From the NCBI RefSeq assembly GCF_032118995.1, contig NC_092656.1, forward strand, positions 13,444,261 through 13,508,260: 64,000 nt of DNA, in the 5' to 3' direction. This document shows positions 6,586-63,278 of this stretch, one piece after another. The notes under the pieces were generated by a model that saw only the letters and a program-made list of their open reading frames with translations, was not told the origin of the DNA and searched no databases. This DNA comes from Asterias amurensis (taxonomy: Eukaryota; Echinodermata; Asteroidea; Forcipulatida; Asteriidae). The stretch's first letter is position 1. Each line of letters begins with the position of its first letter. The translations under genes were made by a program, and so were the position numbers.

Positions 6586-6614
6586 TTAAGGCCTGAAGTC
6601 TTCTAATATTTGAG

Positions 6615-7610: not shown

Positions 7611-7633
7611 GCTTTCCAGTAGTAATCCTATGT

Positions 7634-8110: not shown

Positions 8111-8181
8111 GGCTAGATAGCTCAGTTGGTAGAGCGCCGGCCTGTTAATCCAGATTTATTGGTTTGAATCCCACTCCAGTC
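8111..8181 (+). tRNA. Degenerate tRNA-Asn(GTT)-like sequence
   Basis: It folds as a cloverleaf. The acceptor stem GGCTAGA/TCCAGTC has 6 of 7 pairs. The D arm is TAGCTCAGTTGGTAGAGC (A box). The anticodon loop is CTGTTAA, giving GTT. A B-box-like GGTTTGAATCC follows. The T stem and anticodon stem carry mismatches, so it is probably a tRNA pseudogene or a short tRNA-derived element. It lies in NUDT15 copy 1 intron 2, antisense to the gene, with an identical twin at 23704-23774. Confidence 0.55.
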
Positions 8182-9377: not shown

Positions 9378-9764
9378 AGGCAGTGGACATGGACACTATT
9401 GGTAATTGTCAAAGACTAGCCTTCACAGTTGGTGCATCTCAACATAGGCATAAAATAACAAACCTGTGGAAATTTGAGCTCAATCGGTCATCGAACTTGC
9501 GAGATAATAATGAAAGAAAAAAACACCCTTGACACGCGAAGTTGTGTGCGTTTAGATGGTTGATTTCGAGACCTCAAGTTTTAAAACTGAGGTCTCGAAA
9601 TCAAATTTGTGGAAAATTACTTCTTTCTCGAAAACTATGGCACTTCAGAGGGAGCCGTTTCTCACACTGTTTTATACTATTAACCCCGCCTCATTACTCG
9701 TCACCAAGAAATGTTATATATAGCAATAATTATTTTGAGTAATTACCAATAGTGTCCACTGCCT
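9378..9764. mobile_element. TTAA fold-back family A, copy in NUDT15 intron 1
   Basis: The left end AGGCAGTGGAC, ACACTATTGGTAATTGTC pairs with the right end GTAATTACCAATAGTGTCCA, CTGCCT, then TTAA at 9765-9768. The centre is a hairpin made of GATTTCGAGACCTCAAGTTT and ACTGAGGTCTCGAAATC. Non-coding, about 387 bp. Confidence 0.9.
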
Positions 9765-10265
9765 TTAAGTAGTTTTTATATATATATATAATATATATAT
9801 TTTTTTCTTTTTTTGGGGTGGGGGGGCGGGGGAATTTAGTCAAGAAATTAATCTTAAACTTTAAAATAAAATGCATTTGAAAACGCAGTTTCGATAAGGA
9901 ACCCTCCTTCCAACGGTTGCAACTATATAAAATGGTGAACAAATCTTGCCTAGCCTAGATAAATTCTGATTTATTTTATTATTACTAATAAAATTTAGAA
10001 GCCCCATTAATCATAGTGCCAATCTCAATACACTGGACTCCCTCCTTTCAGGTGTTCTTGGGCCTACTCCCATTAATTTATATTTACCTCCAGGTTGTTA
10101 CTGTTAAATTTTCAAGAAGCGGAGGGAGCCGGAAGGGAGCCGAACTTGGGCACCAGATTCCTATTATTTTTCGAAATTTTGACATTATCGGTCTTGTCGA
10201 CATTTCCAAAAAACTAAAAAGGAATCTAGCGTCCCAGTCACTGGTGACTGGGTCGTACTCCTAAG
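9765..10265. other. NUDT15 copy 1 intron 1, low-complexity sequence
   Basis: Contains a (TA)n run near 9778-9800, a T/G-rich run near 9800-9835, and otherwise unremarkable AT-rich DNA. No exon or element was recognised. Confidence 0.5.
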
Positions 10266-20428: not shown

Positions 20429-20684
20429 TCTGTCCAGCTATTTTGAGACACGTAGACGCCAAATGTATGTCCCTTGCATGTATTAACACTGCTGCGTTAC
20501 CAAAGACACGCGCACGTAGCTCAGCGTGCATTAGTACTTTTCGGATGGAGCGAAAAATGCACGATGAGCGACTCAGCGTGCAATAGTACTTTTATTTGCT
20601 ATTATTTGCTAGGACAATCCTCCAATCAAATGGCAAGGATCTGCTTGGGTGTTGTATAAATAATAATAACCAAATGTAGACATA

Positions 20685-21130
20685 TGGGAATAAAGAATAC
20701 ATTTTGCTTTTACCCTTACACCGCTGTGCATAAAGCACTGTAAACTTAGTCTTTCTAGAAATCTGTGAACAAAAATCCACAGGCTTACCAGTTGACCACT
20801 GAGGTAGCCCTGTTGCTTGAGATAGTTAGTATAATGGGAATAAAGAATACATTTTGCTTTAACCCTTACATCGCTGTGCATAAAGCACTGTAAACTTAGT
20901 CTTTCTGGAAATCTGTGAACAAAAATCCACAGGCTTACCAGTTGACCACTGAGGTAGCCCTGTTGCTTGAGATAGTTAGTATAATGGGAATAAAGAATAC
21001 ATTTTGCTTTAACCCTTACATCGCTGTGCATAAAACACTGTAAACTTAGTCTTTCTGGAAATCTGTGAACAAAAATCCACAGGCTTACCAGTTGACCACT
21101 GAGGTAGCCCTGTTGCTTGAGGTAGTTTGA
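20685..21130 (-). repeat. 150-bp tandem array, about 3 units, SINE-derived
   Basis: CTGTGCATAA recurs at 20723, 20873 and 21023. The units are almost identical to those at 7118-7610 and likewise resemble SINE monomers. The 188-codon minus frame exists because the period is divisible by three. It lies downstream of NUDT15 copy 2, as the first array does for copy 1. Confidence 0.85.
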
Positions 21131-21427
21131 ATCATAAAAATGGGCAATTCCAAGCAAACAAAGAAATAGACCCAAAAATCAAATTCACCCCTGAACTTCC
21201 TTTATATTTTTAAGTTATTGCTATCGTTTGTAAGGACCAGGAAAATAACTTTTTTAGTCAAATGGTTTTTGTTTTCTATGACATATGTCACGTTTCTTTC
21301 TTGCTATGCTTGGCTTACAAAATAAAATATTAAATTGACACTTTTTTCATTTGTTTGCATTTTTCCCATAAAAAAGCGGTTTTACAAAATTTTCATGAAA
21401 TTTAGTAGTATGACCTTGTACCTTTAA

Positions 21428-21731
21428 AGCCCATTTACACTTTCGGTACAGAAACAAAAAGGTCACAGATGTGTTCCATTAAATGCTTTACTTTTTGAGA
21501 AAACATTAAAACAATATCAATTCTCGATAGCGAGAATCACGGATTGATTTTTAACACATGTCATGATACGGCGAAACGTGCGGAAACAAGAGTGGGTTTT
21601 CCCGTTATTTTCTCCCGACTCTGATGACCGATTGAGCCTAAATTTTCACAGGTTTGTTATTTTATACGTAAGTTGTGATACACGAAGTGTGGGACTTGCA
21701 AAATACTGTTTACCGAAAGTGTATAATGGCT
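21428..21731. mobile_element. TTAA fold-back family B
   Basis: The ends AGCCCATTTACACTTTCGGT and ACCGAAAGTGTATAATGGCT are inverted copies. TTAA lies at 21424-21427 and 21732-21735. Another copy is at 39697-40062. Non-coding. Confidence 0.85.
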
Positions 21732-21757
21732 TTAAACAAAACAAAACAAAAAATTTC

Positions 21758-22510
21758 CCATGACTTTTCTTTAAGATATGTAGGTGCACAATTGTTGGGT
21801 GCAGAGAGGTATGACATGCGATTGACGAAAAGCTCCCTTTTTTATTTATTTTTACAACTGGTGGTGATTGTTTTGTTGGCAATTGAAAATTTGCTTCTCC
21901 CACCAATACCAAGTATAAAAGCACCAAGTATTAAACCAAAATACCAACCACATTATCATAGGAGGCCCTTGAAATTGAAACGCGAGTGACGTGAAATGCG
22001 AGTGACGACTTGTAATGCGACTGACGGTACTATTTTCTATTATAAGAATGTGTACAAAGATAGTTTTAAGGGAAGTAATGTGTATAAAAGTATACTACAT
22101 GTACATGTGCATTACTTAAGAACAAAAATAATAATCTGCCCATGACTTTTCTTTAAGATTTGTAGGTGCACAGTTGTTGGATGCAGAGAGGTATGAAATG
22201 CGAGTGAAAGAAAGCTCCCTTTTTAATTTATTTTTTTCACAACTGGTTGTGATTGTATTGTTGGCAATTGAAAATTTGCTTCTCCCACTAATACCAAGTA
22301 TAAAAGCACCAAGTATTAAACCAAAATACCAACCACATTATAATAGGAGGCCCTTGAAATTTGAAAGGCGAGTGGCGTGAAATGCGAGTGACGAAATTCA
22401 AAGCGACTGACGGTACCGATTGCTATTATAAGAATGTGTACAAAGATAGTTTTGAGGAAAGTAATGTGTATAAAAGTATACTACATGTACCGGCATTACT
22501 TAAGCCTATT
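21758..22510. repeat. Direct duplication, about 383-bp unit
   Basis: CATGACTTTTCTTTAAGAT (then GTAGGTGCACA) starts one unit at about 21758 and the next at about 22141. The two are highly similar through TGTACAAAGATAGTTTT and TATAAAAGTATACTACATGT. No protein was recognised. Confidence 0.85.
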
Positions 22511-23282
22511 GTTTTAGGCCTACAGAGGGCAGGCATAATTTGTGGTACCCAGGATGCATTGCATCTCCATAGGAACGTCATCGCAAAGCCGCATCATGCG
22601 CTTCTGCAGTTTACTGATCCTTACGCTTTCTACAATTCTCTGCTATCCAGTCTGGTTGTATTGAAACAAAAGGTAATTTAATTTGATCATTAATATGTGT
22701 AGTATGTAGTAGCTTACTACCCAAGTAAATAAAAATAAATTATTTGTTGTAATTAAAAGATATTATTTGTGGTGCTGAGGGTTGTACAAATTTAAAACGA
22801 TAGGCCTTAGAAAATGGATACGTGCAAATATTCTCGTTGTTCAGATTGCCCTCGCATACTATTTTAGGCGTTAAAAACTATAGAAAGTAAAACAGTTTCT
22901 CTGATTTATTACAACTATAATTTGATAATTTGGTATTTATGGGATGATTTACACAATTTAACTTTTTTTTCTGCATTTATTGTATTAGGCCTATATAAAT
23001 TCTTGTATTTAATATAATCTTATAACGTTTATCCCATTCATTCAGAAATGGCGTTGACTGGCAAAATGAGGCAGAAGCTTTAAATTAAAAAAAAAAAGCA
23101 GCAGGAAAGTTTGATGATCACAAGAACACAGGGAAACTTTCAGTAAAAGCAAACAAATAAAATAAAAGCTTCCTTTCGATGCATGGGCAGATACACTAGA
23201 TGGATTCGCATGATTCTTGGAGAATCTTTGGTCGTCCTCCTGTGGACGAGTGAGTGACGCTGGAATAGCCCATATGTAATAG
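22511..23282. other. Unassigned AT-rich sequence downstream of NUDT15 copy 2
   Basis: No exon, repeat family or RNA gene was recognised. Together with the duplication before it, this is about 2.1 kb of DNA absent from the corresponding place near copy 1. Confidence 0.45.
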
Positions 23283-23350
23283 CAACGGGTACTGCAACGA
23301 TAAACGTTAGTTTTGCATCGGGACAAAACATGTATTTTGTTTTTACCTGT
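23283..23350 (-). mobile_element. SINE fragment at the 3' end of NUDT15 copy 2
   Basis: On the minus strand it holds CCCGATGCAAAACTAACG and TCGTTGCAGTACCCGTTGC, matching the fragment at 7634-7712. It was therefore present before the NUDT15 duplication. Confidence 0.7.
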
Positions 23351-23703
23351 GCTTTGTCACTACTTTTGAAGATATCACTGAAAGGGTTGTAGTCAGTTTC
23401 CCTGAAAATTCTCAGCGGATGAAAAAGTTTCTCAGCAGATGGGAACTTGTCCCAATCCTACGAAAAAAAAATATATATGTATAATAAGAACAATAAAACA
23501 CAAATATATTTACCCAATCAGGTTCCCTTGTGGTTTATACTGATATCTGAAACAAAAAGTCCCAAACAGAGGTGCCGCTTCCCAGGTTTTATTGTAATTG
23601 GGGTGTGATCCCTGGCTACACGGCAGTTAACAGTTGTATCGCTTCTGATGACTGGCACCCCCCGAACAAAGATATTGACAAAATAGGGACACCGCCAATA
23701 TAG

Positions 23704-23774
23704 GGCTAGATAGCTCAGTTGGTAGAGCGCCGGCCTGTTAATCCAGATTTATTGGTTTGAATCCCACTCCAGTC
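23704..23774 (+). tRNA. Degenerate tRNA-Asn(GTT)-like sequence, second copy
   Basis: Identical over its length to 8111-8181 and likewise in intron 2 of NUDT15, antisense. The identity may reflect a recent duplication, gene conversion or some constraint. The mismatched T stem makes a working tRNA unlikely. Confidence 0.55.
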
Positions 23775-25079
23775 AATTCTTTGTTCAACCCCCAAAACAC
23801 AAACATATTATGTTTCTGGGTTTTTTTTTTTTAAATGGGAGATCGCCTAGCATCAAAAGTTTGGACGGCCACTCCAAAGTGAGGGCTACACATAACTGAT
23901 TCCGGCTGTTGACCCAAATCATCTGTCCCCAGGAGTACATTGCCACCTACTACTCCTGGGGCTGAAAGCTGAAACAGTCCATAAGGATGAAGGCATGTGC
24001 ATCATTCACTAGGAACATGGCTGGTAGAACAGAATGCACAACCTTCCCAACTTTTTACTAGTTGTGAAGAGCCCAGACAGATGGGGACACAGGCAAGATA
24101 TTTAATACCATTTTAGACATAATGTCGTTGAGAAATTTTAATATACAAACCAGGATCTTAAAGATAGCCTCTCCTTAACTGGCAGCCAGTTAAATAAGGT
24201 GTGGCATGGTCTACATGCAGGTGCAATATTGTAACCCTCCTCCAGACGGGAATTTGGTCCAACACGTACAATTTCGACAGCTAATTAATGGATTTGCTCC
24301 TTTTTTACCACTTTTGAAAATCATTACACAAATTCTAAGAACACAAACTCAAGCAGGAGAAGGGTAACGTGTCTATGGCTTCGCCATTCGGATGAGGGTT
24401 ACGTTATCGCAACTAGGCGCGGTAATGCTACGAGACACGAAAGACAAGTTTAGCAGCCCAGTTCGGAAGCCTAGTTGCAGTGGTTGTATATGAAGTGGTA
24501 GTGGTAGATTTGTGAAAATACATCAGGCCAATCTGAGGGAAACCGTTCTACGTTTAAAACATTAACCTTCACATTTATGGGGCTCCATATTCACTGGTTC
24601 TTCTTGATACGTCATATCAATCTCTGCTTCCATAACTATGGCAACATAATGGTAGTTGTCTTCAACGCTGAATGAATTGATCACTGTACAAAACTTGACC
24701 TTCTTTATCCTCAGGCCAGTTTCTTCTTCAGTCTCTCGGATGGCACACTCCTCCCAATTCTCTCTGTGTAAGAGGAGGGAACCAAAATATTTTATATTAA
24801 TGCAAATGTCAAAATTTTAAGCAACGATTGAAGAGCCCCGGATTGGCCACAGGTTTTTTGGTCAGTTTATTGGTTTGCTGATTTTGTTTACTATTTTCTA
24901 AGAATAAGTCATAAAATGTTTTTTTTTTTGTGTTTTTTTTTTGGGGGGGGGGGGCAAATTCAGTCAAGAAACAAATCTAAAGTTTAAAATGCATTTGAAA
25001 CTGTAGTTGCGATAAGGAACCCTCCTCCCTATATGGATGCAACTATTGAAAATGGTGAACAAATTTTGCCTAAATAAAT

Positions 25080-32094: not shown

Positions 32095-32580
32095 ATGTAA
32101 ATCGTAAGGTAAACCTCTGGTCTGGTCATTTATGGTCAACCTGTGGTCATTTGGTGGTCAACCTGGTCATTTTGTGGTGACCCTGTCATTATGTGGTAAA
32201 GCTGTGGTCATTCTGTGGTAAACATGTGGTCATTCCGTGGTAAACCTATGGTCATTCTGTGGTAAACCTATGGTCATTTTGTGGTAACCCTGTGGTCATT
32301 CTGTGATAAACCTGTGGTCATTCTGTGATAAACCTGTGATCATTATGTGATAAACCTGCGGCCATTGTGTGGTAAACCTGTAATTATGTGGTAAACCTGT
32401 GCATTCTATGGTAAATCTGTGGTCATTCTGCGGTAAATATGTGGTCATTCCGTGGTAAACCTATGGTCATTCTGTGGTAAAACTTTGGTCACTCTGTAAA
32501 CATGTGGTCATTATGTGATTAACCTGCGGCAATTCTGTGGTAAACCTGTGCATACTATGGTAAATCTGTGGTTACCCTAA
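32095..32580. repeat. Minisatellite, about 22-bp unit
   Basis: About 20 degenerate repeats of TGTGGTCATTCTGTGGTAAA with CCTG spacers. Copies vary by substitutions and small indels, so the array is old. Non-coding. Confidence 0.9.
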
Positions 32581-34517: not shown

Positions 34518-34825
34518 TTAATATTATTAATATTCTTTATCCCCGATGCAAATTTAACATCTATTATATCGTTGCGGTACCCGCTGCCAAAACATAGGAT
34601 TCGAACTGCCTCTAGCTGCCGGGCAACCTCGGTAGTCTATGTTGGTAAGACACTGCTCTAGAATTGCAAGGGTCGTGGGTTCGAATCCCACCCGAGTAAC
34701 ATGCCTGTGATATTTTTTCACAGGACTCGGGAAAGTACTGAGTATACAGTGCTAACACACATCGGTGTATGGGTAAAAACCAATATTAATATTCTTTATC
34801 CCCGATGCAAATTTAACATCTATTA
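34518..34825 (+). mobile_element. tRNA-derived SINE with a 43-bp repeat at both ends
   Basis: Flanked by a 12-bp direct repeat, TAGTGAGGAACA, at 34506-34517 and 34826-34837. The tRNA-like head is at about 34630-34697 (GGTAGTCTATGTTGGTAAGA and GGGTTCGAATCCCACCC). The body has GCCTGTGATATTTTTTCACA, TACAGTGCTAACACAC and GGGTAAAAACC. The tail ATTAATATTCTTTATCCCCG plus GATGCAAATTTAACATC occurs at 34526-34568 and again at 34785-34827, so the unit looks like a tail-head-body-tail partial dimer. Relatives are at 38335-38545, 7634-7712 and 23283-23350. Confidence 0.85.
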
Positions 34826-34837
34826 TAGTGAGGAACA

Positions 34838-36008
34838 GTAAAAAAAAAAAAAAATAAGAAGAGGATGTAAAACACAGACGTGATTAGTCGCTGCGTCCAC
34901 GTGGAATTGTACATATCTCAAAGGGCTCGAGGAGAAACTCTTTTTCCTCTTAAAAAGGGCCTGGGAAACATTTAAAATGGTCCCTTGGTATGGAATAAGA
35001 AACCATATAGATCATGCTGGCTTGTTAGTGTGATTTCTAAAGTGCATACTACTGGAGCCTAGCGGACGCCTTAAGGATTTACAATGCCATGTATGTGTCT
35101 TCTGTTTTGGCGCGAAAGGGAACTTCAGTACCTCATATTAGAGTAACGGACTTTAAAGGGATGTATTCTTGGATCGGTCGAATTGGACCATGAAAAGCAA
35201 TGGCAACCCTTTGTTATGAAATTGATATTGTTAGAAAGATGTTTTAAAAATATTGTATTTTGCGCGGTCACCGTGTATTTTCAACGTGACGTCACTTTTT
35301 CGTGCAGTAAAGAAGGTTGCCTTTTCGTGTGCTTAATACGATAAGAAGCGCTATGAAATGGAAATCGCATAGAAATAAACAAATCGGCTGGTAAGCAGCT
35401 CTATGAAATTGGGCCTTGGTGTTTCTGATCAGCATATTCTAGTTGCAGTCTTGACTCTTTTGTCCTTTTAGCAGGATATATAACCATGATTGCTTCGTCC
35501 TTCTGATTTGGACGTGAAGCCCACATAAAAGAACCAAGTACACTTATCGTTAAGAGAAGGTGTTCGCCCCACTGCTTTCTGGTGTGGTTGAGTGCAGATT
35601 GCGCCACAACACCTTGTAAACCGTATACACCCAGGTCTTATAATTTCGATGATATAGCTTCGCACGCAGTGTATTAAAACAAATGAGCGGCTTTGGATTA
35701 ACTTGAAAGGCTATTAATTAGGGGACCCCGGTATTATTCATGCGTATAATCAACCTTATTAGTTTCTTTAGGTTTAATGGTGGTCCACATTTTTGTGGAA
35801 TTACTATATTTAGATTTTTTACATCGCTGGGGCCTTCGAGGGCGCACTTGACGGCAAACTGCTTTATATTATGTTATGTTGAGCACATCTGAGATATTAG
35901 TTAATAAGTCAAAATAAATTATTAAAGGGGGCCTACGAAACAAACGCATGTGTGTTGGGCATGGAGATGTGTAAGAAACCATCGCCGATGAAAATAGTTT
36001 GTACTTTA
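34838..36008. other. Intron sequence with degraded fold-back pieces
   Basis: About 35155-35300 resembles half of family C (CTTGGATCGGTCGAATTGG). About 35385-35412 carries an end of the GGGCCTTATTTCATAG family. The rest is unassigned. Confidence 0.45.
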
Positions 36009-37857: not shown

Positions 37858-38334
37858 TTAAAATTCGAAACCCTCCCAATGCAAAATATGTATCATCACC
37901 AAAAATATCAAATTGCATCATTCTGAGAAAAAATGGGTCTAACATTTCTTGTACGGGGATGCTTTTGTTCATACCTTACCTTTTCAGAGCAAAATTTGAT
38001 ATTATGACGTCATGGATCTTTTAAATTTCACTGATGAGTATTTTGTTAGAAAAAAATGCAAAATTCAAGGCTTTTCGGTTGAGCTATTAACATTGGGAGT
38101 TGATAGGAATAGGCTACACCAAAACATACCCATAAAAAAAAGGAAAGACAAATTTGTCAGGATGTCATCAGATATTTTTGATGTTGACAGACTTTGCCCG
38201 GTAAGGTATCGTGCGATAGCTTTTTACACCATTAACATGAGGTTAGCTTTATTATTTGTTATTACATTAGGACAACCCTTACAGGATCAAACACTTTGAT
38301 TGGTTAGGAGCGCGTCACATGATATGTCTTATAA

Positions 38335-38545
38335 TAACTGTTAAATTTGCATCGGGAATAACGATTATTAACTTTGGTTTTTACCCATACACCAAAGTGT
38401 GTTAGCACTGTACACTCAGTACTTTCCCGAGTCCTGTGAACAAAGTATCACAGGCATTTTTTACTTTAGTGGAATTCGAACCCAAGACCCTTGCAAATCT
38501 ACAGCAGTGTCTTACTATCTAGACTACAAAGATTGCCCGGTAGTG
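38335..38545 (-). mobile_element. tRNA-derived SINE, minus-strand copy
   Basis: On the minus strand it reads the same order as 34518-34825: GTAGTCTAGATAGTAAGACA, GGGTCTTGGGTTCGAATTCC, GCCTGTGATACTTTGTTCAC, TACAGTGCTAACACAC and GGGTAAAAACC. It ends in CCCGATGCAAATTTAACAG. It lacks the extra tail repeat at its start. Confidence 0.8.
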
Positions 38546-39116: not shown

Positions 39117-39476
39117 GGGCACTGGTAACTTTGTTTGTAAATACTCGAACATAATTATAAGAGCATAAAACCTTGGTAACGACTAATGGTCTAGAAGGCT
39201 GTTGATATAGTAGTATGAAGTAACGTAGTTTTTGAGAAAGTAGTATTTTTTACTAAAATATTTGAATCTGATTTCGAGACCTAAGAATTATATTTTGAGG
39301 TCCCGAAATCAATCATCTGAAAGCACACAACTTGCGCAACAAAAGGGCGTTTTTCCATTATTCCCTCGCAACTTTGACGACCAATTGAGCTCAAATTTTC
39401 ACAGGTTTGTTATTTTTGCATAAAATTATGTTAAGATACACCAAGTGAGACAAAATTACCAATAGTGTCCAGTGTC
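39117..39476. mobile_element. TTAA fold-back family A
   Basis: TTAA lies at 39113-39116 and 39477-39480. The right end is AATTACCAATAGTGTCCAGT. The central hairpin is GATTTCGAGACCTAAGAATT with a matching TTTGAGGTCCCGAAATC. Confidence 0.85.
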
Positions 39477-43089: not shown

Positions 43090-43467
43090 ATGCTAAATTT
43101 GCACCAAGGATAAAGACAATTATTTGCGTTTGACTCCTACACTAATGTGTGATGTATATGGTTAGAAAGATGTTTGTAAAAGTAAAATACAACGAACATG
43201 CCTCGGAATTGCGTGGTTTTCCTTTTAGTTTGCGAACTTACACGGTCGGCCATTTTATGGAGTCAATTGACTTGACTCCACAAAATGGCGTGCCTTGTTT
43301 CACGCCGTATATGAAAACCATGCAATTTCGAGGCATATTTGTGTGGATCGTTACATGTATATTCTACTTTTAAAACATCTTTCTAACCGTATGCATTTTA
43401 TTACAAACGGTTTCAAACGCTTTTCATTGAACACCTCGCCCGTTCCAATGTAACGTGTCAATTTAAA
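43090..43467. mobile_element. SINE tail fragment joined to a family C fold-back element
   Basis: 43090-43150 resembles the SINE 3' part on the minus strand. 43150-43467 is family C lacking its outer left end. Inverted arms meet at GGAGTCAATTGACTTGACTCC and carry GGTTTTCC and GGAAAACC-like blocks. Probably an element inserted beside or into an older SINE. Confidence 0.6.
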
Positions 43468-44362: not shown

Positions 44363-44366
44363 TTAA

Positions 44367-44742
44367 AGCGATGGACACTATTGGTAATTGTCAAAATCCA
44401 GTCTTCTCACTTGGTGTATATCAACATATGCATTAAATAACTAACCATGTGAACATTTGAGCTCGATTGGTCATCAGAGTTGCGAGATAACTATGCAAGA
44501 AAAAACACCCTTGTCACACGAGGTTGTGTGCTTTCAGATGCTTGATTTCGAGACCTCAAATTCTAAACTTGAGGTCTCGAAATCAAATTCGTGGAAAATT
44601 ACTTCTTTCTCGAAAACTACGTCACTTCTGAGGGAGCCGTTTCTCACAATGTTTTATACCATCAACCTCTCCCCATTACTCGTTACCAAGTGAGGTTTTA
44701 TACCGATAATTATTTGAGTAATTACCAATAGTGTCCACTGCC
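44367..44742. mobile_element. TTAA fold-back family A
   Basis: TTAA lies at 44363-44366 and 44743-44746. The ends are GCGATGGACACTATTGGTAA and TTACCAATAGTGTCCACTGC. The central hairpin is GATTTCGAGACCTCAAATTC and CTTGAGGTCTCGAAATC. Confidence 0.92.
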
Positions 44743-44746
44743 TTAA

Positions 44747-46388
44747 AGATAGTGACAATCTGATGCGGAATTTTAGCCAACTATTAGCCATATCAGATGA
44801 TTTGGTAATAACTAATTACTTTGTGTGTGTTTTCGTGAATAGGAATGACCAAAATTATTCCCCACCAATTCCGATCTCGAACACAAGCTCTTATGGGTAT
44901 GAAAAATACAATGGCGCACGAACCTACCCTACCATAGAGCACAGTGTCTCTGCAGCATGCATATCATTATTTCTTGATATAACCTTGGTGGCAACGAAGA
45001 GAAAAGGTTGGCTAAAAAACAGCCTGTCAAATAGATTAGACACGCACGATTGAGCATGACCGAACCCATCACCATGGGTTGATGGATCCTAAATTAAAGA
45101 TGAGTAGAGAGAGGATCGACACACATGGTAATTACAGTGGTTGGATACTGATATTTAAGTCTGCTCAACTACGGGGGTGTCAGTAAACTAAAATCACTGA
45201 CATGGCGTAGGTAAGTGCATCACGTGCAAGTGTTTTTTTGTTTTTTTGTTTTTTTGTTTTTTTTTGGGGGGGGGGTGGGGGGTTTGGATGGTAGGGGATA
45301 TCACTTAATATGCCTATCAGTAACGACAAATGTCGCTACATTATTCTTATCATTGAGCAAATTCTTTTCCGTCGTCCAGCTTTCAATAATCATATACCTT
45401 TCAACCAATCTGAGAAGACTTGCTCAGATTAATTTGATTTTGGTTTCGATTTTTCCTGCCGTTGTATATCCACTGTATAGATGAAGGCTTTAGGATGAAG
45501 GCAACAACATGGTATCTCCAGTGTCTCTATTTTGTGCAAATTGATAGGAAAAATAACTACCCCATACTATGCAGCTCGCCTCCTACGCCTTCTCCTTCTC
45601 CAGCAACCTTTATTTCATTATTTCCCACTGTTTCCAGTGGTTGATTGTTCAAATTGGGTAATGGTTTTTATTTTTTCGGGGATTTTGTGAACACGTGTAT
45701 TAGGGCTTATTGTGATTTCTCTAAGAGTCTTTACCAAAAGTTTTTTATACAGGCCATTTAAAAATTAATTTTGATAGTTGTTATGTCTTCATTCAGACAT
45801 TAGTAACAGTATATTCAGATTGATGCGAATGTGTTTTATCCTGTCATCGAATCTGAACATGGGCAAGTACTTGGCTGTCCGTCACTGTATACAAGTCAAA
45901 TTTAATAAAATTGATTTGATTAACTGCCGTGATGGACACTATCCCTTGACCCCTTTTTTTAATTCTCTATGTACACACTGGAAGTAAAATGAAAACAAGA
46001 ATGACGCCATAATGTAAAACGTGTCAACTTGGCAATAATTTTTCATTTTATTTATATAGGTTTTGTTCAGGTGCAGCACGACCTCGCGTCCTCGAAATAA
46101 TTTGTAACAAAAACAAATACCATCTACAATAATATTGGACAACGAAGAATATCATTAAAGGAAGGGTCATGATCCCCCTAAATATTTGGTAGGCAGGTAA
46201 TGACTCCAAATGCTGCTGTTGATTATAACATTTCCCTTCAAAGGGATGGGGTTTTAGGGAGAGGGTTTCGAAATTATTTCAATCTTAATCTCAAAAACGC
46301 TACCAACTTTTGAAGTGAACTGTTTACGGGTTAGTTTATTTTGTGTATACCTGACATGTATGTAATTAGAGCTATACTTTGACTTTAA
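44747..46388. other. Intron sequence with a T-rich microsatellite
   Basis: 45232-45290 holds (TTTTTTTG)n followed by G runs. The remainder is unassigned AT-rich DNA with no recognised exon. Confidence 0.5.
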
Positions 46389-46771
46389 AGGAACACGTTG
46401 CCTTGGATCGGTCGAGTTGGTCTTTGAAAAGCGTTTGTATTCATTTGTTATAAAATGCATATGATTAGAAAGATATTTTAAAAGTAAAATATAATGATCC
46501 ACACAAGTATCACTCGAAATTGCGTGGTTTTCCTCTACCTCGTCGACTAACACGGTCGGCCATTTATGGGAGTCAAATTTTTGACTCCCACAAATGGCCG
46601 ACCGTGTTAGTTCACAAAGTAAAAGGATAACCACGCAATTTAGAGGCATATTTGTGTGGATCATTGTATTCTACTTTTAAAATATCTTTCTTATCATATG
46701 CATTTTATAACAAACGGTTACAAATGCTTTTCAAAGACCAACTCGACCGATCCAAGGCAACGTGTTCCTTT
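46389..46771. mobile_element. TTAA fold-back family C, full-length
   Basis: Almost the whole element is two inverted arms. The ends are AGGAACACGTTGCCTTGGAT and ATCCAAGGCAACGTGTTCCT. The centre is GGCCATTTATGGGAGTCAAA then TTTGACTCCCACAAATGGCC. TTAA lies at 46385-46388 and, one base further out than expected, at 46772-46775. As RNA it would form a hairpin of about 180 bp. Confidence 0.95.
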
Positions 46772-48310: not shown

Positions 48311-48687
48311 AAAGGCAGTGGACACGATTGGCAATTACTAAAAAAAATTATTAGCATAAAACCTGACTTGGTGACGAATAATGGGGAGAGGTTGATGGTA
48401 TAAAACATTGTGAGAAACGGCTCCCTCTGAAGTGACATCGTTTATGAGAAAAAAAGTGATTTTCAGCGAATTTGATTTCGACACCTCAGATTTAGAATTT
48501 GAGGTGTCGAAATCAAACACCTGAAAGCACACAACTTTGTGTGACAATGGTGTTTTTTCTTTCATTATTATCTTGCAACTTCGACGACCAGTTGAGCTCA
48601 AATTCTCGCAGGTTTGTTATTTTATGCATAATTATACACCAAGTGAGCAGACTGGTCTTTGACAATTACCAATAGCGTCCACTGTCT
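48311..48687. mobile_element. TTAA fold-back family A
   Basis: TTAA lies at 48307-48310 and 48688-48691. The central hairpin carries paired changes (GATTTCGACACCTCAGATTT and TTTGAGGTGTCGAAATC): both arms read CACC/GGTG instead of GACC/GGTC, so pairing is kept. Confidence 0.9.
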
Positions 48688-48691
48688 TTAA

Positions 48692-51015
48692 AATAGAGAC
48701 GTTAATTGCTAGGGAGGAGACTGTCGCTCGTGCCCCAGCAGCGCCACTACACAAATTTGATTTCGGAGGAGACATTGATGATAAAAACAGCTGCTGTTAT
48801 ATTTTGACCGTTGATTTGACTTGCTACAATGGCTGCTCTACATGGTCGTGTCACGACCATAAACAGTCAATATCAGGCGTAAATGTCAGCGAAAAAATAC
48901 CCTAGCAACTTGATCAATATACATATCGTTATGGGTTAACGTTGCGCCCCATAGGTTTTGACACCGTGAAGTAAAAGCTGCACACACACAGTACAGTAAT
49001 GACACTAAGTCAACGTTTGTTTTATCTGATTCGAGAGATGTAGACGTAACTGTAACAACTTAGGAATGTTTTAGCTGCTTCATAGACGGAAGTAAGTTGT
49101 CTGCCTCCTCTGAACTGAGACTAACAAGTTAACATTAAAAGTTTGACTAATATTGTTGATATCAAAGACTGATTGCAGGCCAATAGTTTTATTTATTAAC
49201 GTCTAGGGCTTCAATATGAACAAACTATTGGTGAAACATCGTTCCCAGTAAAATTAATGGACGTGGCTTGACAATAAATCGATACATTGTGTGTTTTCTG
49301 ATACGGTGTTATCGATTATAATTATACCATAGTGGAAAATTAATGTAAAAGTTGCTTTTAATATTTCACAATATTGTCCACTATCCACTGTACTATCCCA
49401 GTTTTATTTTATTTATCAATAACTGTTGGAAATATTTATGTACACTCTGGTCTTTGCAAGTAGAAATGAACAAGGTTTTAGCACGTCGTTGTATTGTGCG
49501 TATCCGGTTGTCACATTCCTTTATTCCGGTATTTTATTTTCTTGTTTTTAATGGTTTTATTTCATTCACATTGATATTTGAAAATTTCAAAGAAAAATCA
49601 AAGTTAGCTGAGAATTATATAAAATTTACTTTGGTAGCCAATAAATTGTACCGTGAAGCCAATGGACTGGTCTATAAATCAGGGTGTAAACAGGCTCAAT
49701 GATAGGTGTAAAGAAATGTGGAAATGCAATATTTGTGGAATTGTGTTGGCAGCTGTATATAAAGACCTTTTCATTTGATACAATTTTTACTGGCATATTA
49801 TTCGGGAGGCAATCTTAGTAGAATGTGTGAAAAAGGAAAAGAAAAGGGCATGTCATTCAAAAGGGACATTTTTCATCGGTGGCTCACACTCCATTAGTTG
49901 TTAAACATGGTTCGTTATACTGAGTGTGTTCGCTGGAATGGCTGCCTCCTTAAAGTGTGATGTATGACCGAAAAAGAAACAATGTCCATTCGCTGTGATT
50001 CTCAGATTTGTAGTTTCACAATTATTCAGACCATGACAACTGAAAGCAGTTGTTCGTCTCCTCCTTCATCCCTTTTTTTTGAGGCCGAACCTTTTGTTTT
50101 CTTTGTTTTACATTTGGTTTTTAAAACCAAAACAAATTCTCTGTGAATTTATCACTATTCTGACTATTTTTTTGTAATAACTTAGAACAGTATAACGTAA
50201 GGTGACTTGAAACTAAAGAATTTATGTCCAGTTTGAAATGCTTGGCGGCCACCTTTGATAGAAAGAAAAATTAAAAGGCCCTCATCCTCCTCTTTTGGGG
50301 TATTTGTTTTTACTTGGCACAATATCACTTTGTATTTAAAATCTTGAGGGTGTTTTGAGTACATGTCACTAAGCTATGCAATAGCTATTGCTCCATATGG
50401 GTAGACGCAGTACATCTTGAAGTTACAAAACACTCTTGTGGAAATGAGTCAATTAAATTAAGAGAGGTAGTTCATGAGATTAAGATTACCAATTATAATG
50501 CCGAGCTTAGTGTAATTAGGCCACGAGGGAAACTTAATTGGGCAACACATAAATCCCCCACACTAAAAATACATGTTTGTTTTGTTGATTGGTTATTAGC
50601 TTTCGAGGAAGGATTTTGCAACAGCTAATTTTGATTCCTCAAAATAGAATTTTATGACCATGTGGAAAATAACAAATGTGGAAAAATACTCCAAAATGTA
50701 ATGTCAAAATTGTGTTTTGAAATTTCATCACAAATAGGCTGAAATTACAAAGGAACCCTTGCATTTTCGCCAAAAATGGGCTGAAATGTGATTATACTAC
50801 ATGGGGTATAGGCCTAAACCTTGCAAAGGCTCTTCATCAAGGATGGCGGCCGATCAAAATTAATAAACCATCGATGAAAACAATTTAAAAATAGTGGAAG
50901 ATGCACGTCCCTGAAGATTTTACTCATCAAAGCCATTCGAGCGTGTCGTCTCGTCAGACAGGATACATCCGATGCTTTTACTTATATTATTATTATTAAA
51001 CTCACTTCAAAATGT
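48692..51015. other. Intron sequence, nothing firmly recognised
   Basis: About 2.3 kb of AT-rich DNA. Some short stretches near 50690-50810 (CCCTTGCATTTTCGCCAAAA, TGGGCTGAAATG) vaguely resemble inverted, decayed units of the nearby 54-bp minisatellite. Confidence 0.4.
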
Positions 51016-51019
51016 ACAT

Positions 51020-51920
51020 GGATCGGCAGCCCATGTGGTAAGGGTTGGCTTAGAGACGTACGAGCCCCGGTTCGAATCCCGCTACTGTACAAATTATTTT
51101 CTTTTTATTTTATTAAGCCGTTGCTGTTACGCACTGAGTTGTTTAAGTAGTGTTTAAAATCACCTCCTAACACCAACGGGCACTGTGGCGACACAGTGCA
51201 CTGGATCGTTCGCTTGCGTGCGTTCCAGAGCTGGGAGACCCGGTTCGAATCCCGCCCCGTACCAAAGGGACATGACTTTTACTGCTAGCACCAGTAAGTG
51301 ATTGGGGTCCGTCATGTCTCTCCCCAAATTAGGGTAGGATGATTTTTCCGGGTCGGAAAGTAAAGGAGGGGCCGGGACTAGCCATCCCTTAAGGGTTCTA
51401 ATGGGTGATCACCACGCTGGTTTCGATCAGACTTTGAGTCCCCTGAATGCCTGGTCTTCACTCTAACTAACTTTCTGCACAAATTTGTTTTAATTTAAAA
51501 CTATTTTTAAGATATTTACTATCTATTGTGTTAATATTTCAATTCCGCCTATTTTTAGGTAAAGCGAATATAAACATTTCACAGCTGAAAACTTATGGAC
51601 AGATTTTTTTTGAATGTCGGCGAATTGTTTCTTTACCAATTCACGTGGTATTTGAGGGGAGGCTTAATGGAGTGCGAGGAGTTGAACATTATTTCTCTGA
51701 GTAAATTGAGTTTCCAAACAAGCCCAACCCAAGCACCTGTAACTCAGCAACTTTCTTCTAATAATCAATGGTTTTTATGCCACTGAAGGTTAGGCAAATC
51801 GGAGAGAGAAAAAATGATGCTGAAAACTTGCAAGACTTATCCGCTATTCCCCTTTATTTACAAAATCTTAGCCATTTTATTAATTTTTTGTTACAAAAAG
51901 TTGCAAGGGGATTTTATCAA
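51020..51920 (+). repeat. Left arm of a 5.6-kb inverted structure, with two tRNA-like segments
   Basis: The first tRNA-like segment is at about 51026-51095 (CATGTGGTAAGG, then GGTTCGAATCCCGC). The second is at about 51181-51262 (GTGGCGACACAGTGCACTGG, then GGTTCGAATCCCGCC). A 650-bp body follows, running into the minisatellite at GTTACAAAAAGTTGCAAGGG. The inverted partner is 55765-56670. The second tRNA-like part and the body differ from the partner at only a few visible positions; the first tRNA-like part is more diverged. Confidence 0.9.
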
Positions 51921-54900
51921 ATTTGCCCAATTTCGACAAAGATGCAAGGTTTAACTCTTGGGATTTTATCAAACTTTAGCCCAATTTCGACAAAGATGCA
52001 AGGTTTACCCCTTGGGATTTTATCAAATTTTAGCCCAATTTTGACAAAGATGCAAGGTTTACCCCTTGGGATTTTATCAAATGTTAGCCCAATTTCGAAA
52101 AAAATGCAAGGCTTACCACTGGTTATTTTATCAAATTTTAGCCCAATTTCGACAAAGATGCAAGGTTTACCCCTTGGGATTTTATCAAATTTTAGCCCAA
52201 TTTCGACAAAAATGCAAGGCTTACCACTGGTTATTTTATCAAATTTTAGCAAAATTTCGACAAAGATGCAAGGTTTACCCCTTGGGATTTTATCAAATTT
52301 TAGCCCAATTTCGACAAAGATGCAAAGTTTACCCCTTGGGATTTTATCAAATTTTAGCCCAATTTCGATAAAGATGCAGGGTTTACCCCTTGGGATTTTA
52401 TCAAATTTTAGCCCAATTTCGACAAAGATGCAAGGTTTACCCCTTGGGACTTTATCAAATTTTAGCCCTATTTCGACAAATATGCAAGGTTTACTCCTTG
52501 GGATTTTATCACATTTTAGCCCAATTTCGACAAAGATGCAAGGTTTACCTTTTGTGATTTAATTAAATTTTAGCCCAATTTCGACAAAAATGCAAGGATT
52601 ATCCCTTGGGATTTTATCAAATTTTAGCCCAATTTCGACAAAGATGCAAGGTTTACTCCTTGGGATTTTATCACATTTTAGCCCAATTTCGACAAAGATG
52701 CAAGGTTTACCTTTTGTGATTTAATTAAATTTTAGCCCAATTTCGACAAAAATGCAAGGATTATCCCTTGGGATTTTATCAAATTTTAGCCCAATTTCGA
52801 TAAAGATGCAGGGTTTACCCCTTGGGATTTTATCAAATTTTAGCCCAATTTCGACAAAGATGCAAGGTTTACCCCTTGGGATTTTATCAATATTTAGCCC
52901 TATTTCGACAAATATGCAAGGTTTACCCCTTGGGACTTTATCAAATTTTAGCCCAATTTCGACAAAGATGCAAGGTTTACTCCTTGGGATTTTATCACAT
53001 TTTAGCCCAATTTCGACAAAGATGCAAGGTTTACCTTTTGTGATTTAATTAAATTTTAGTCCAATTTCGACAAAAATGCAAGGATTATCCCTTGGGATTT
53101 TATCAAATTTTAGCCCAATTTCGACAAAGATGCAAGGTTTACCCCTTGGGATTTTATCAAATTTTAGCCCAATTTCGACAAAGATGCAAGGTTTACCCCT
53201 TGGAATTTCATCAAATTTTAGCCCTATTTCGACAAATATGCAAGGTTTACCCCTTGGGATTTTATCACATTTTAGCCCAATTTCGACAAAGATGCAAGGT
53301 TTACCTTTTGTGATTTAATTAAATTTTAGCCCAATTTCGACAAAAATGCAAGGATTATCCCTTGGGATTTTATCAAATTTTAGCCCAATTTCGACAAAGA
53401 TGCAAGGTTAACCTTTTGTGATTTAATTAAATTTTAGCCCAATTTCGACAAAAATGCAAGGATTATCCCTTGGGATTTTATCAAATTTTAGCCCAATTTC
53501 GATAAAGATGCAGGGTTTACCACTTGGGATTTTATCAAATTTTAGCCCAATTTCGACAAAGATGCAAGGTTTACCCCTTGGGATTTTATCAATATTTAGC
53601 CCTATTTCGACAAATATGCAAGGTTTACCCCTTGGGACTTTATCAAATTTTAGCCCAATTTCGACAAAGATGCAAGGTTTACTCCTTGGGATTTTATCAC
53701 ATTTTAGCCCAATTTCGACAAAGATGCAAGGTTTACCTTTTGTGATTTAATTAAATTTTAGCCCAATTTCGACAAAAATGCAAAGATTATCCCTTGGGAT
53801 TTTATCAAATTTTAGCCCAATTTCGACAAAGATGCAAGGTTTACCCCTTGGGATTTTATCAAATTTTAGCCCAATTTCGACAAAGATGCAAGGTTTACCC
53901 CTTGGAATTTCATCAAATTTTTGCCCTATTTCGACAAATATGCAAGGTTTACCCCTTGGGATTTTATCACATTTAAGCCCAATTTCGACAAAGATGCAAG
54001 GTTTACCTTTTGTGATTTAATTAAATTTTAGCCCAATTTCGACAAAAATGCAAGGATTATCCCTTGGGATTTTATCAAATTTTAGCCCAATTTCGACAAA
54101 GATGCAAGGATTATCCCTTGGGATTTTATTAAATTTTAGCCCAATTTCGACAAAAATGCAAGGATTATCCCTTGGGATTTTATCAAATTTTAGCCCAATT
54201 TCGATAAAGATGCAGGGTTTACCCCTTGGGATTTTATCAAATTTTAGCCCAATTTCGACAAAGATGCAAGGTTTACCCCTTGGGACTTTATCAAATTTTA
54301 GCCCAATTTCGACAAAGATGCAAGGTTTACTCCTTGGGATTTTATCACATTTTAGCCCAATTTCGACAAAGATGCAAGGTTTACCTTTTGTGATTTAATT
54401 AAATTTTAGCCCAATTTCGACAAAAATGCAAAGATTATCCCTTGGGATTTTATCAAATTTTAGCCCAATTTCGACAAAGATGCAAGGTTTACCCCTTGGG
54501 ATTTTATCAAATTTTAGCCCAATTTCGACAAAGATGCAAGGTTTACCCCTTGGAATTTCATCAAATTTTTGCCCTATTTCGACAAATATGCAAGGTTTAC
54601 CCCTTGGGATTTTATCACATTTAAGCCCAATTTCGACAAAGATGCAAGGTTTACCTTTTGTGATTTAATTAAATTTTAGCCCAATTTCGACAAAAATGCA
54701 AGGATTATCCCTTGGGATTTTATCAAATTTTAGCCCAATTTCGACAAAGATGCAAGGATTATCCCTTGGGATTTTATTAAATTTTAGCCCAATTTCGACA
54801 AAAATGCAAGGATTATCCCTTGGGATTTTATCAAATTTTAGCCCAATTTCGATAAAGATGCAGGGTTTACCCCTTGGGATTTTATCAAATTTTAGCCCAA

Positions 54901-55642
54901 TTTCGACAAAGATGCAAGGTTTACCCCTTGGGATTTTATCAATATTTAGCCCTATTTCGACAAATATGCAAGGTTTACCCCTTGGGACTTTACCAAATTT
55001 TAGCCCAATTTCGACAAAGATGCAAGGTTTACTCCTTGGGATTTTATCACATTTTAGCCCAATTTCGACAAAGATGCAAGGTTTACCTTTTGTGATTTAA
55101 TTAAATTTTAGCCCAATTTCGACAAAAATGCAAGGATTATCCCTTGGGATTTTATCAAATTTTAGCCCAATTTCGACAAAGATGCAAGGTTTACTCCTTG
55201 GGATTTTATCACATTTTAGCCCAATTTCGACAAAGATGCAAGGTTTACCTTTTGTGATTTAATTAAATTTTAGCCCAATTTCGACAAAAATGCAAGGATT
55301 ATCCCTTGGGATTTTATCAAATTTTAGCCCAATTTCGATAAAGATGCAGGGTTTACCCCTTGGGATTTTATCAAATTTTAGCCCAATTTCGACAAAGATG
55401 CAAGGTTTACCCCTTGGGATTTTATCAATATTTAGCCCTATTTCGACAAAGATGCAATGTTTACCCCTTGGTTTTTATCAAATTTCCCTTGGGATTTTAT
55501 TAAATTTTAGCCCAATTTCCACAAAGATGCAAGGTTTACGCCATGGCATTTTATCAAATTTTAGCAAAATTTCAACAAAGATGCAAAGTTAGCTTCTTGG
55601 GATTTTATCAAATTTTAGCAAAATTTCGACAAAGATGCAAGG
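51921..55642 (+). repeat. 54-bp minisatellite, about 69 units, with higher-order repeats
   Basis: The unit reads TTTAGCCCAATTTCGACAAA, GATGCAAGGTTTACCCCTTG, GGATTTTATCAAAT. The 54-bp period is 18 codons, so several frames stay open for long runs. A variant unit with CTTTTGTGATTTAATTAAAT recurs. Larger blocks are duplicated exactly or nearly so, such as 52752-53048 with 53454-53750 (702 bp apart) and 53778-54020 with 54426-54668 (648 bp apart). No protein is inferred. Confidence 0.97.
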
Positions 55643-55785
55643 TTGGGCTAAAATTTGATAAAATCCCAAGGGGTAAACCTTGCATCTTTGTCGAAATTGG
55701 ACAAATTTAATAAAATCACAAGGGGTAAACCCTGCATCTTTGTCGAAATTGGGCTAAAATTTAATTAATCGGATAAAATCCCCTG
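55643..55785 (-). repeat. Minisatellite units in reverse orientation
   Basis: After 55642 the array flips. About two to two and a half units read on the minus strand (CCCAAGGGGTAAACCTTGCA, TCTTTGTCGAAATTGG) before the right arm begins. Confidence 0.9.
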
Positions 55786-56670
55786 CAACTTTTTGTAACA
55801 AAAAAATAATAAAATGGATAAGATTTTATAAATAAAGGGGAATAGGGGGTAAGTCTTGCAAGTTTTCAGCATCATTTTTTTTCTCTCTCCGATTTGCCTA
55901 ACTTTCAGTGGCATAAAAACCATTGATATTTAGAAGACAGTTGCTGAGTTACAGGTGCTTGGGTTGGGCTTGTTTGGAAACTCAATTTACTCAGAGAAAT
56001 AATGTTCAACTCCTCGCACTCCATTAAGCCTCCCCTCAAATACCACGTGAATTGGTAAAGAAACAATTCGCCGACATTTAAAAAAAAATCTGTCCATTAG
56101 TTTTCAGCTGTGAAATGTTTATATTCGCTTTGCCTAAAAATAGGCGGAAATGAAATATTAACACAATAAATAGTCAATATCTTAAAAATAGTTTTAAATT
56201 AAAACAAATTTGTGCAGAAAGTTAGTTAGAGTGAAGACCAGGCATTCAGGGGACTCAAAGTCTGATCGAAACCAGCGTGGTGATCACCCATTAGAACCCT
56301 TAAGGGATGGCTAGTCCCGGCCCCTCCTTTACTTTCCGACCCGGGATAATCATCCTACCCTAATTTGGGGAGAGACATGACGGACCCCAATCACTTACTG
56401 GTGCTAGCAGTAAAAGTCATGTCCCTATGGTACGGGGCGGGATTCGAACCGGGTCTCCCAGCTCTGGAACGCACGCAAGCGAACGATCCAGTGCACCGTG
56501 TCGCCACAGTGCCCGTTGGTGTTAGGAGGTGATTTTAAACACTACTTAAATAATCCATTGCTATGACTGCTTAGTAAAAGAAAAATATCGGTAGTAGTGG
56601 GATTCGAACCCGGGTCAGTAGCATTGAAAGCCCACCTCTTTCAGCATAAGCTACGGGTTCTCTTAGCACA
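55765..56670 (-). repeat. Right arm of the 5.6-kb inverted structure
   Basis: Reverse complement of 51020-51920. It ends with the two tRNA-like segments in reverse order: GGCGGGATTCGAACCGGG at about 56435-56520 and GGGATTCGAACCCGGG at about 56600-56670. Inner parts differ from the left arm by about 1 in 100 by eye, for example ACACGGTG against ACACAGTG; the outermost part is clearly more diverged. No clear target duplication was found outside. Confidence 0.9.
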
Positions 56671-57818
56671 AGTGAGATATAATGGGTTGTTATGCATAAG
56701 AGTGGTTCTGACTTTATTCGTCAGAATTAAAGACGAGTGAACAGCGTTCTTCCCGAAATCTTAATGTTCTTTTAAGGTTTTCCTTTTTCATGGTTTCATC
56801 AAGTGCTTATCCGGAAAACTGGGGAGAAAATCCCAGGTTTTGTGTTTTTTGTCAAAATTCGGTTGACTAAAAAAAAAAACTTGGGGATGGGCCTAAGTAT
56901 TGCACATTTCGAAAATGAGTTGAAATGAAATGAAATCCCAGGGAAAATTTGTTAAAATTTTGAAAGTCAAGCCTTGCAATGTTGTCGAAAAAAAATAAAG
57001 CGTTTCATTTGACGAAAACTCCCAAGGCCTAAGCCTTGAAATTTGACAAAAATTGTGATGATCTTAGTGTAAACTTACATTTTCCTGCATGCTAAAGTAA
57101 GACTTTTTCGTGGATGCTTTTTTGTCTTATTTAGACCGGAAAGAACAGCAAGTTGGGATACTCAGAGTGCTCATCAAAGCGAGTTTAACTGGATTTTTGT
57201 ACACGTTTGAGCTGTCAAAGGGACAAAATACAAAGTAGCCGCGGTCAAATCACCCTAACAATATAGTCCTCGATTTGTACAAGTTTTATACCATTGGAAA
57301 GCCATTGCAAGGGCTCTCTCAGTGTTGGTTCCGTTTCTGGTGTTTTATAGCCTTGTTGCCAGGAACACATGACACATACACTTGCATCTGAAAATGCTGA
57401 ATGCAATTATAAAGCTGGTGTACTTTCTACCTTAACAAAATTTCTTACCAATAATTTTAAGAGTGGTTACCAAACGTAAACCTTCCCTTTAAGGTGTTTT
57501 ACAAAGAAGACCATGTAATTATGTTAAAAACAAAATTGCCAGATTTGGCTTTTTGTTTGTCTTCTCATTGTGCCATGGATTTCACTTCTCACTTGACCCA
57601 TTTTCTTCTTGTGAATTCGTCTTTGAAATTTAGCAATTATATTAAAGTCTTTTGTTCTTCCTGTGGTTGCCACGCTTCCCATTAAAGCAAGGTCTTTCTT
57701 TTATGATGCCCTAAGCCGGGTAAAAACTCATTCCAGTGTCTCAGATCTTCGTCAGTTACTTTTCAATATTTCGTTTACCTCAATGTATTGTCTGATAATA
57801 GCATGTAGGCCCATTTAA
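56671..57818. other. Intron sequence with possible decayed minisatellite relatives
   Basis: 56820-57060 contains pieces such as CAAGCCTTGCAATGTTGTCG and CCCAAGGCCTAAGCCTTG that resemble reversed, heavily mutated 54-bp units. 57430-57490 is the end of a TTAA element (CCAAACGTAAACCTTCCCT then TTAA). The rest is unassigned. Confidence 0.4.
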
Positions 57819-58101
57819 AGGAACACGTTGCCTTGGATCGGTCGAGTTGGTATTAGAAAAGCGTTTGTAATCGTTTGTTATAAAATGCATATGGGTAGAA
57901 ACTGCGTGGTTTTCCTTTTACTTTGCGCACTAACAAGGTCAGCCATTTATGGGAGTAAAAAAAAAAAAGTGACTCCCATAAATGGCCGACCGTGTTTGTC
58001 GACGAGGTTAAAGGAAAACCACGCAATTTCGAGTGATACTTGTGTGGATCAATATATTATAATTCAAAGACCAACTCGTCCGATTTAAGGCAACGTGTTC
58101 C
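57819..58101. mobile_element. TTAA fold-back family C, internally shortened
   Basis: TTAA lies at 57815-57818 and 58102-58105. The ends are AGGAACACGTTGCCTTGGAT and AAGGCAACGTGTTCCT. The centre GGCCATTTATGGGAG and CTCCCATAAATGGCC is kept. Confidence 0.9.
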
Positions 58102-58263
58102 TTAAACAAGTATGTTTCTTGACGATACCAAGCTAGTCGAAACGTTGAGACCAATTTATAAGAACTCACTCCGCGGTAGCGAGATTTATAACGAGAATTC
58201 CCTCGATCCACTCAGCGAAAGTAGTATTCCCAGCCGATTTCCTTCTTCCCGCCCAGATAGTTA

Positions 58264-58500
58264 AAGAAACACGTTGCCTTGGATCGGTCGTGTTGGTCTT
58301 TGAAAAGCGTTTGAAACTGTTTTGTTTTGATATGCTTACAGGCCTATGGTTAGAAAAATATTCAAAAAGTACTAATATAATGATCCACACAAGTATCACT
58401 TGAAACTGCACGGTTTTCCATTTATGTGGCGAATTAACACGGTCGGTCATTTTATGGAGTCAAAATGTTGACCCCACAAAATGGCCGACCTTGTTTCTTC
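58264..58500. mobile_element. TTAA fold-back family C, half copy
   Basis: The left arm and centre are present (AACACGTTGCCTTGGATCGG, CATTTTATGGAGTCAAAATG, CACAAAATGGCCGACC). The right arm is mostly missing. Confidence 0.8.
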
Positions 58501-62454: not shown

Positions 62455-62895
62455 TTAAATTATATGGGTTTGTGTATAGTCTAAAGCGAAACTGAACCCC
62501 CAGTGAATTGCACTTATCAAAACCCGAACGAAGCTAAAGATTCACGTAATGATAATATGACATGATATCAACATCCCGAATCAAATATGAACGTGACACG
62601 AGACGGTACCCCCAATTATGCAAGCTCAATCCAGTTACCAGTAATTCGCTGATGTAGCCCCAATTTAGGCCACATCCAAAAAAAATTGTTGATCGTCCCC
62701 GCCCGACCGTTCAAAACCCCCCGACCCCATTTTTTTTTCCATCATAAAAAGCAACCTTTTCAGCAGAATTTTTTTCAAAATGTACAGGTTTTTATTCATG
62801 TTGGCAAAGCAAAAACAATTCTTCAAATATTTACTTGGGCTACACTGTGCTTAGTTGTTTGAAAAAGTTTACAGAAAATGTCATCTAGGAGTTAA

Positions 62896-63274
62896 AGACA
62901 GTGGACACTATTGGTAATTGTCAAATACCAGTCTTCTCACTTGGTGGATCTCAACACATGCATAAAAAAGTAAAGCCTGTGAAAATTTGAGCTCGATTGG
63001 TCGCCGGAGTTGCGAGATAACTATGAAAAAAAAAACACCCTTGTCACACGAAGTTGTGTGCTTTCAAATGCTTGATTTCGAGACCTCAAATTCTGAACTT
63101 GAGGTCTCGAAATCAAATTCGTGGAAAATTACTTCTGTCTCGAAAACTACGTCACTTCAGAGGGAGCCGTTTCTCACAATGTTTTATACTATCAACCTCT
63201 TCCCATTACTCGTTACCAAGTGAGGTTTTATGCTAGTAATTATTTTGAGTAATTACCAATAGTGTCCACTGCCT
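62896..63274. mobile_element. TTAA fold-back family A
   Basis: TTAA lies at 62892-62895 and 63275-63278. The ends are AGACAGTGGACACTATTGGT and ACCAATAGTGTCCACTGCCT. The central hairpin is GATTTCGAGACCTCAAATTC and CTTGAGGTCTCGAAATC. Confidence 0.92.
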
Positions 63275-63278
63275 TTAA

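Follow-up and report, generated by a model that had tools for sequence, protein, structure and literature searches.

Positions 51067-56612 of the window (the whole 64-kb stretch of DNA that we analyzed) are occupied by a real inverted structure, in which two arms of ~850 bases stand around an array of 54-bp units. Within the window, BLAST matches 51065-51915 to the inverted segment 56614-55775 (94% identity overall), and together with the alignment it places the two arms, on the + and - strands respectively, at about 51067-51909 and 55786-56612. From its outer side inward, the left arm (+ strand) contains an outer segment (51025-51086) found by motif search, with an exact box B at 51069-51079 followed by T runs; a linker (51087-51141); and a core (51142-51909) made up of an inner box-B segment (51242-51252), a GC-rich body and an AT-rich body. 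The right arm repeats this order on the - strand, with an outer segment at 56595-56664 (motif search; exact box B at 56600-56610), a linker at 56551-56594 homologous to the left one, and a core at 55786-56550 delimited by alignment to the left core. An initial annotation of this DNA, made from the sequence by eye, had proposed two arms facing in opposite orientation, each with two tRNA-like segments on the outer side, then a body and then the minisatellite, and both arms do have this mirrored order, the segments being the outer and inner box-B segments just listed. Its extent of 51020 to 56670 was too generous: the structure is symmetric from about 51067 to 56612, and the outer heads beyond these points are weakly alike.

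Similarity between the arms is not uniform along their length. Over 51128-51903, the two arms match in 752 of the 775 aligned columns and mismatch in the other 23, gaps taking up 6 further positions; they are thus not a perfect read fold-back, as had been noted. Four of the 23 mismatches are clustered at 51134-51141, and inward of 51142 only 19 are left in about 760 columns, which gives the cores an identity of ~97% and an abrupt fall in the linker outside. There, 33 of the 44 ungapped columns are alike between 51087-51141 and 56551-56594, plus 11 gap columns; the homology score of the linkers was reached by 1 of 2000 shuffles and by none of 4218 control stretches. The outer parts are thus more diverged than the inner arms, in agreement with the initial annotation, and the step, from 19 mismatches in about 760 columns of the core to 11 in the 44 columns of the linker (p ~1e-7), sits at TTTAA on both sides. 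Farther out, the heads before the outer box B are weakly alike when taken alone (127 of 2000 shuffles and 51 of 4218 controls score as high), and head plus linker with box B left out reach a score matched by 0 of 2000 shuffles and 2 of 2622 controls. The alignment of 50941-51066 with 56613-56740, which only 2 of 300 shuffles equaled, also favors some homology between the outer heads. The 120 bases outside the heads show no relation between the two sides (z -0.2; 611 of 1000 shuffles as good). Local alignment of the wider flanks was matched by 12 of 200 shuffles in inverted and 11 of 200 in direct orientation, and we draw on neither. The outer flanks have no more k-mers in common than chance would give, with one shared 8-mer, TCGTCAGA (1 found versus 0.99 expected). 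Across the 64-kb window the arm has no match except its partner. Folding of the arm body was no better than that of shuffled sequence (11 of 100 as good).

Between the arms, TRF reports 66.3 copies of a 54-bp unit at 51908-55485, and additional rows with periods of 54 and 52 extend as far as 55765. Combining TRF with unit comparison and reading the units from the sequence, we find direct units (+ strand) at 51910-55644 (3735 bp, 69.2 periods), followed by reversed units (- strand) at 55645-55785 (141 bp, 2.6 periods). The counts first given, about 69 direct and about 2 reversed units, are thereby confirmed, as is the expansion of the array on one side. The two arrays abut at 55644/55645, and no host sequence lies between them. 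When 66 direct units are cut in one phase, 27 are distinct, and comparison of units at lags of 1 to 25 gives the lowest mean differences at lags 13 (4.25) and 25 (4.29), compared with 5.07 for lag 12 and 6.17 for lag 1. The array has higher-order repeats of 12 and 13 units; between the neighboring 12-unit blocks at 53690-54337 and at 54338-54985 there are 6 differences in 648 positions. Irregular units are the last ones before 55644. At the other end, the first direct unit (51910-51961, + strand, 52 bp) carries a TA deletion at 51919-51933, and in a pattern search of the whole window the deleted form occurred once per strand, in this unit and in a reversed unit (55694-55708). Because this 2-bp deletion is common to the first direct and one reversed unit, we read it as a sign that the arm and a unit were duplicated together. 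With the deletion excluded, the mutual score of the two units is 44.0, and each scores 45.5 against the commonest unit of the array.

Two other readings of the array were tried and rejected. The 54-bp period leaves a frame open for up to 265 codons from stop to stop (51765-52562), and a reading of the array as a protein repeat fails at units of type GATTTAATTAAATTTTAG, which break the frame. Matches to RNA families (tsr1, microRNA) in the array and the central fold-back, the best at 43.8 versus a gathering score of 235, were taken as chance.

The segments at the outer side of each arm had been described as tRNA-like. The sequence GGTTCGAATCC is present exactly twice per arm, at 51069-51079 and 51242-51252 (+) and at 56440-56450 and 56600-56610 (-); with one mismatch allowed it has 11 matches in the window versus 0.76 expected, a number reached by 0 of 100 shuffles. 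A T run begins 14-24 bases downstream of each of the four box-B motifs, which resembles the arrangement after tRNA genes. Upstream, box A is matched at 9, 10, 10 and 10 of 11 positions, and as 894 of 3000 random 53-bp stretches reach a box-A score of at least 10, box A in these segments is no better than random. ARAGORN lists none of the four segments as a tRNA. The Rfam tRNA model leaves them unmatched at E up to 10 in searches of 6.8 kb and of two 291-bp stretches, and the same model matches three other places in the window. It would be fair to say that "tRNA-like" is apt for the box B and for nothing else in these segments.

Beyond each of the two arms there are decayed units of the 54-bp family that the initial annotation had missed, on the left at 50601-50850 and on the right at 56771-57170, in both cases assigned to the - strand by local score and nhmmer. 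Compared with the repeated consensus, the left flank scores 89 on the - strand (44 being the highest of 60 shuffles) and 50 on the + strand (shuffles at most 54), and two overlapping 250-bp stretches of the right flank score 89 and 86 on the - strand and 59 and 41 on the + strand. Among 440 control strand-windows elsewhere in the window, one scored 75 and the next 51. A profile of the array gave 32.1 bits at 50753-50838 and 26.5 at 50730-50794 on the left, and 18.2 bits at 56895-56990 and 11.0 at 57016-57055 on the right, all on the - strand; the next match, at 39364-39398, had 8.5 bits, and five single-base shuffles gave 6.8 at best. Both flanks also exceed their own shuffles (87 and 94 versus at most 54 and 52). 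The same tandem family thus continues beyond the arms in decayed form, with a strand assignment that is not clean on every stretch: the + strand also rises above its 60 shuffles at 56771-57020 (59; at most 46), 50751-51000 (44; at most 36) and 57071-57320 (54; at most 43). Comparing one flank with the other gave 56, within the range of 300 shuffles (at most 63), and the array profile found no fresh 54-bp units beyond either arm. That the old units on both sides point the same way (-) would be the better-scoring reading, which is not certain, and we are unsure of their phase and number. Units on the same strand are not mirrored, and a mirror-symmetric element would give opposite strands or none. 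With their best scores on one common strand, the old units on the two sides suggest that the minisatellite was at the locus before the palindrome.

The control stretch scoring 75 is the - strand of a 22-bp minisatellite at 32123-32572, which bears GGTAAACC on one strand of each unit, perhaps by chance. Several dispersed repeat families are also present in the window. A repeat of ~386 bp at 62892-63278 recurs, whole or in part, at 17 other places at E up to 1e-8, including 9386-9768, 44363-44747 and 48311-48691. In the one copy whose ends were inspected, the queried one, it has inverted ends CAGTGGACACTATTGGTAAT and ATTACCAATAGTGTCCACTG, with TTAA three bases beyond either end, and a hairpin in its interior; by its appearance it would be a TTAA-type MITE. 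Another repeat, about 385 bp long, is palindromic, with 90% self-complementarity; it lies at 46387-46771 and has partial copies at 6392-6587, 35168-35252, 43152-43458, 57817-58103 and 58263-58495. About three copies of a 150-bp tandem unit are found in each of 7118-9328 and 20684-24900; the two places have a segment in common at 83.5% (7629-9328 and 23273-24900), and each has a tRNA match, at 8111 and 23704. An ORF at 8966-9226 (-) resembles, by eye, a NUDIX hydrolase. A tRNA-Ser-like head recognized by ARAGORN and Rfam at 34626-34700 belongs to a repeat also present at 38330-38543, possibly a SINE. Finally, a frame of 1108 codons at 11070-14396 has endonuclease and reverse transcriptase domains, a PHD finger match below the cut-off, and the sequence GDVESNPGP, which we take to be a 2A-like motif; a second, partial reverse-transcriptase ORF is present elsewhere in the window. 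Its dispersed repeats and reverse-transcriptase ORFs mark the window as eukaryotic, and the repeats tentatively hint at an echinoderm.

We favor, at roughly even odds (about 0.5), the interpretation that the structure is a local palindrome, that is, an inverted duplication inside an older minisatellite, and not a new kind of mobile element. The locus would have started as a - oriented 54-bp array containing a single composite arm, which had a body and a pair of box-B segments. This arm and its adjoining units would then have been copied in inverted orientation, either through template switching at a fold-back or through a tandem duplication of which the left copy was then inverted; the latter is possible because flipping the left half would align all units and both arms. 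The outcome would be an arm with its units, followed by inverted units and an inverted arm. Arm-to-arm gene conversion, which we assume, would later have homogenized the part inward of 51142 while the outer linker and heads diverged. The direct array may have grown on one side by blocks of 12 or 13 units through unequal exchange or slippage, and the outermost old units would have decayed. We infer this order of events and the copying mechanism from the arms, the flanking units and the array, and we expect the structure to have no selected function.

Several observations point to a local palindrome: the decayed units on both sides (best score 89 each), the TA deletion common to the first direct and one reversed unit only, the identity step, the unrelated 120 bases outside the heads, the abutting arrays, and an arm that matches only its partner in 64 kb. 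Against it, a TTAA-specific insertion would also give a step at TTTAA, the two units with the TA deletion are otherwise slightly less alike (44.0) than each is to the commonest unit (45.5), the flanking units cannot be cleanly assigned to one strand, and the comparison of flank with flank stays within its shuffles. Two of the supports, the flanking units and the shared deletion, are weakened by the + strand scores and by the unit comparison.

A foldback-type DNA transposon, with long inverted repeats, a unique outer part, inner tandem repeats and one expanded arm, is the main rival account of the same features, possible though rather unlikely. Long inverted repeats are present, and so are tandem repeats within them, with about 69 units in one arm and 2.6 in the other. 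Such an architecture is like that of Tetris, with its TIR-220 repeats in inverted repeats, and of Galileo F, with repeat numbers unequal between arms. High identity begins at TTTAA on both sides, so that the element could possibly be TTAA-specific, with ends at 51147 and 56545, and the window holds the dispersed ~386-bp family, one inspected copy of which has TTAA outside its inverted ends. However, TTAA is self-palindromic, and inverted arms automatically show it on both sides. An end scan of 50960-51159 versus 56530-56719, with matching termini required, did yield eight target-duplication candidates (TTTAAA, TTCGAA, CCCGG, TTAA three times, TCGA and CCG), but those of at least 4 bp are either self-palindromic motifs or, in the case of CCCGG, TTCGAA and TCGA, located at box B. 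Moreover, the linker and box B beyond the proposed ends are homologous in inverted orientation, unlike random flanks, and this reading leaves unexplained why units of the 54-bp family occur beyond either arm. Still less probable is a new TTAA-specific foldback family that would combine paired Pol III-type box-B segments with a self-expanding 54-bp array and prefer its own minisatellite tracts as targets.

The initial annotation had suggested a meeting of two mobile-element copies. As two independent SINE-like composite elements with a minisatellite tail, joined tail to tail, the structure would account for the T run downstream of each box B, as after tRNA genes, and for outer heads that are more diverged than the cores. 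We nevertheless consider this quite improbable: there is no host sequence between the tails, the segments have no match to a tRNA model, no other copy of the arm is present in the 64-kb window, and the target-duplication candidates are those just described. Insertion of one copy into the array of the other would also leave fresh units outside, and their absence beyond the arms, including the right one, counts against it. Inverted arms and a long array are difficult to assemble, but an assembly or read fold-back artifact can be given very little credence: the compared core has 23 mismatches and 6 gap positions, the outer flanks differ, the arrays are asymmetric, and the window's single gap (500 N, 934-1433) lies far from the structure.

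Exact patterns taken from the 54-bp unit, from the inner box-B segment and from the arm body had 0 matches in viral contigs, those of the unit and body 0 in prokaryote contigs, and that of the 386-bp repeat 0 in viral contigs, host DNA not being expected in any of these collections. Understood as a local palindrome, the structure shows clearly, at a single locus, an inverted duplication with a sharp homogenization edge and one-sided growth of a minisatellite, in which the old flanking units suggest a time order of events; dispersed copies, if found, would raise its significance.

Palindromic duplications that are kept alike by arm-to-arm gene conversion have high inner identity and a sharp edge; the locus differs from them in its short arms around a minisatellite. 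Sea urchin TU elements have long inverted repeats with tandem repeats, as here, and a shorter tandem unit. A literature search, covering titles and the beginnings of abstracts, found no publication naming such a structure. The Drosophila virilis foldback transposon Tetris has inverted repeats that reach 1,735 bp, unique in their outer domain and holding tandem repeats farther in, and its TIR-220 repeats also make arrays of up to 66 copies (PMC4079207), in all of which it is like the present locus. It differs in its 220-bp unit and in having three structurally complete copies with identifiable target duplications (PMC4079207), whereas here there is one locus, the candidates are self-palindromic or at box B, and decayed units lie outside both arms. 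The Galileo F subfamily of Drosophila mojavensis has inverted repeats to about 1.2 kb with internal tandem repeats, whose numbers can differ between the two inverted repeats as they do here; it is distinguished by 7-bp target duplications, a known P-superfamily transposase, and a repeat region of about 210 bp with two or three copies (PMC3573991). Internal tandem repeats had been put forward as what sets the locus apart from foldback elements, a contrast that does not hold, as Tetris and Galileo F likewise carry theirs internally (PMC4079207, PMC3573991). With tandem repeats inside the inverted repeats of both, the architecture of an arm with internal repeats is not new but already known.
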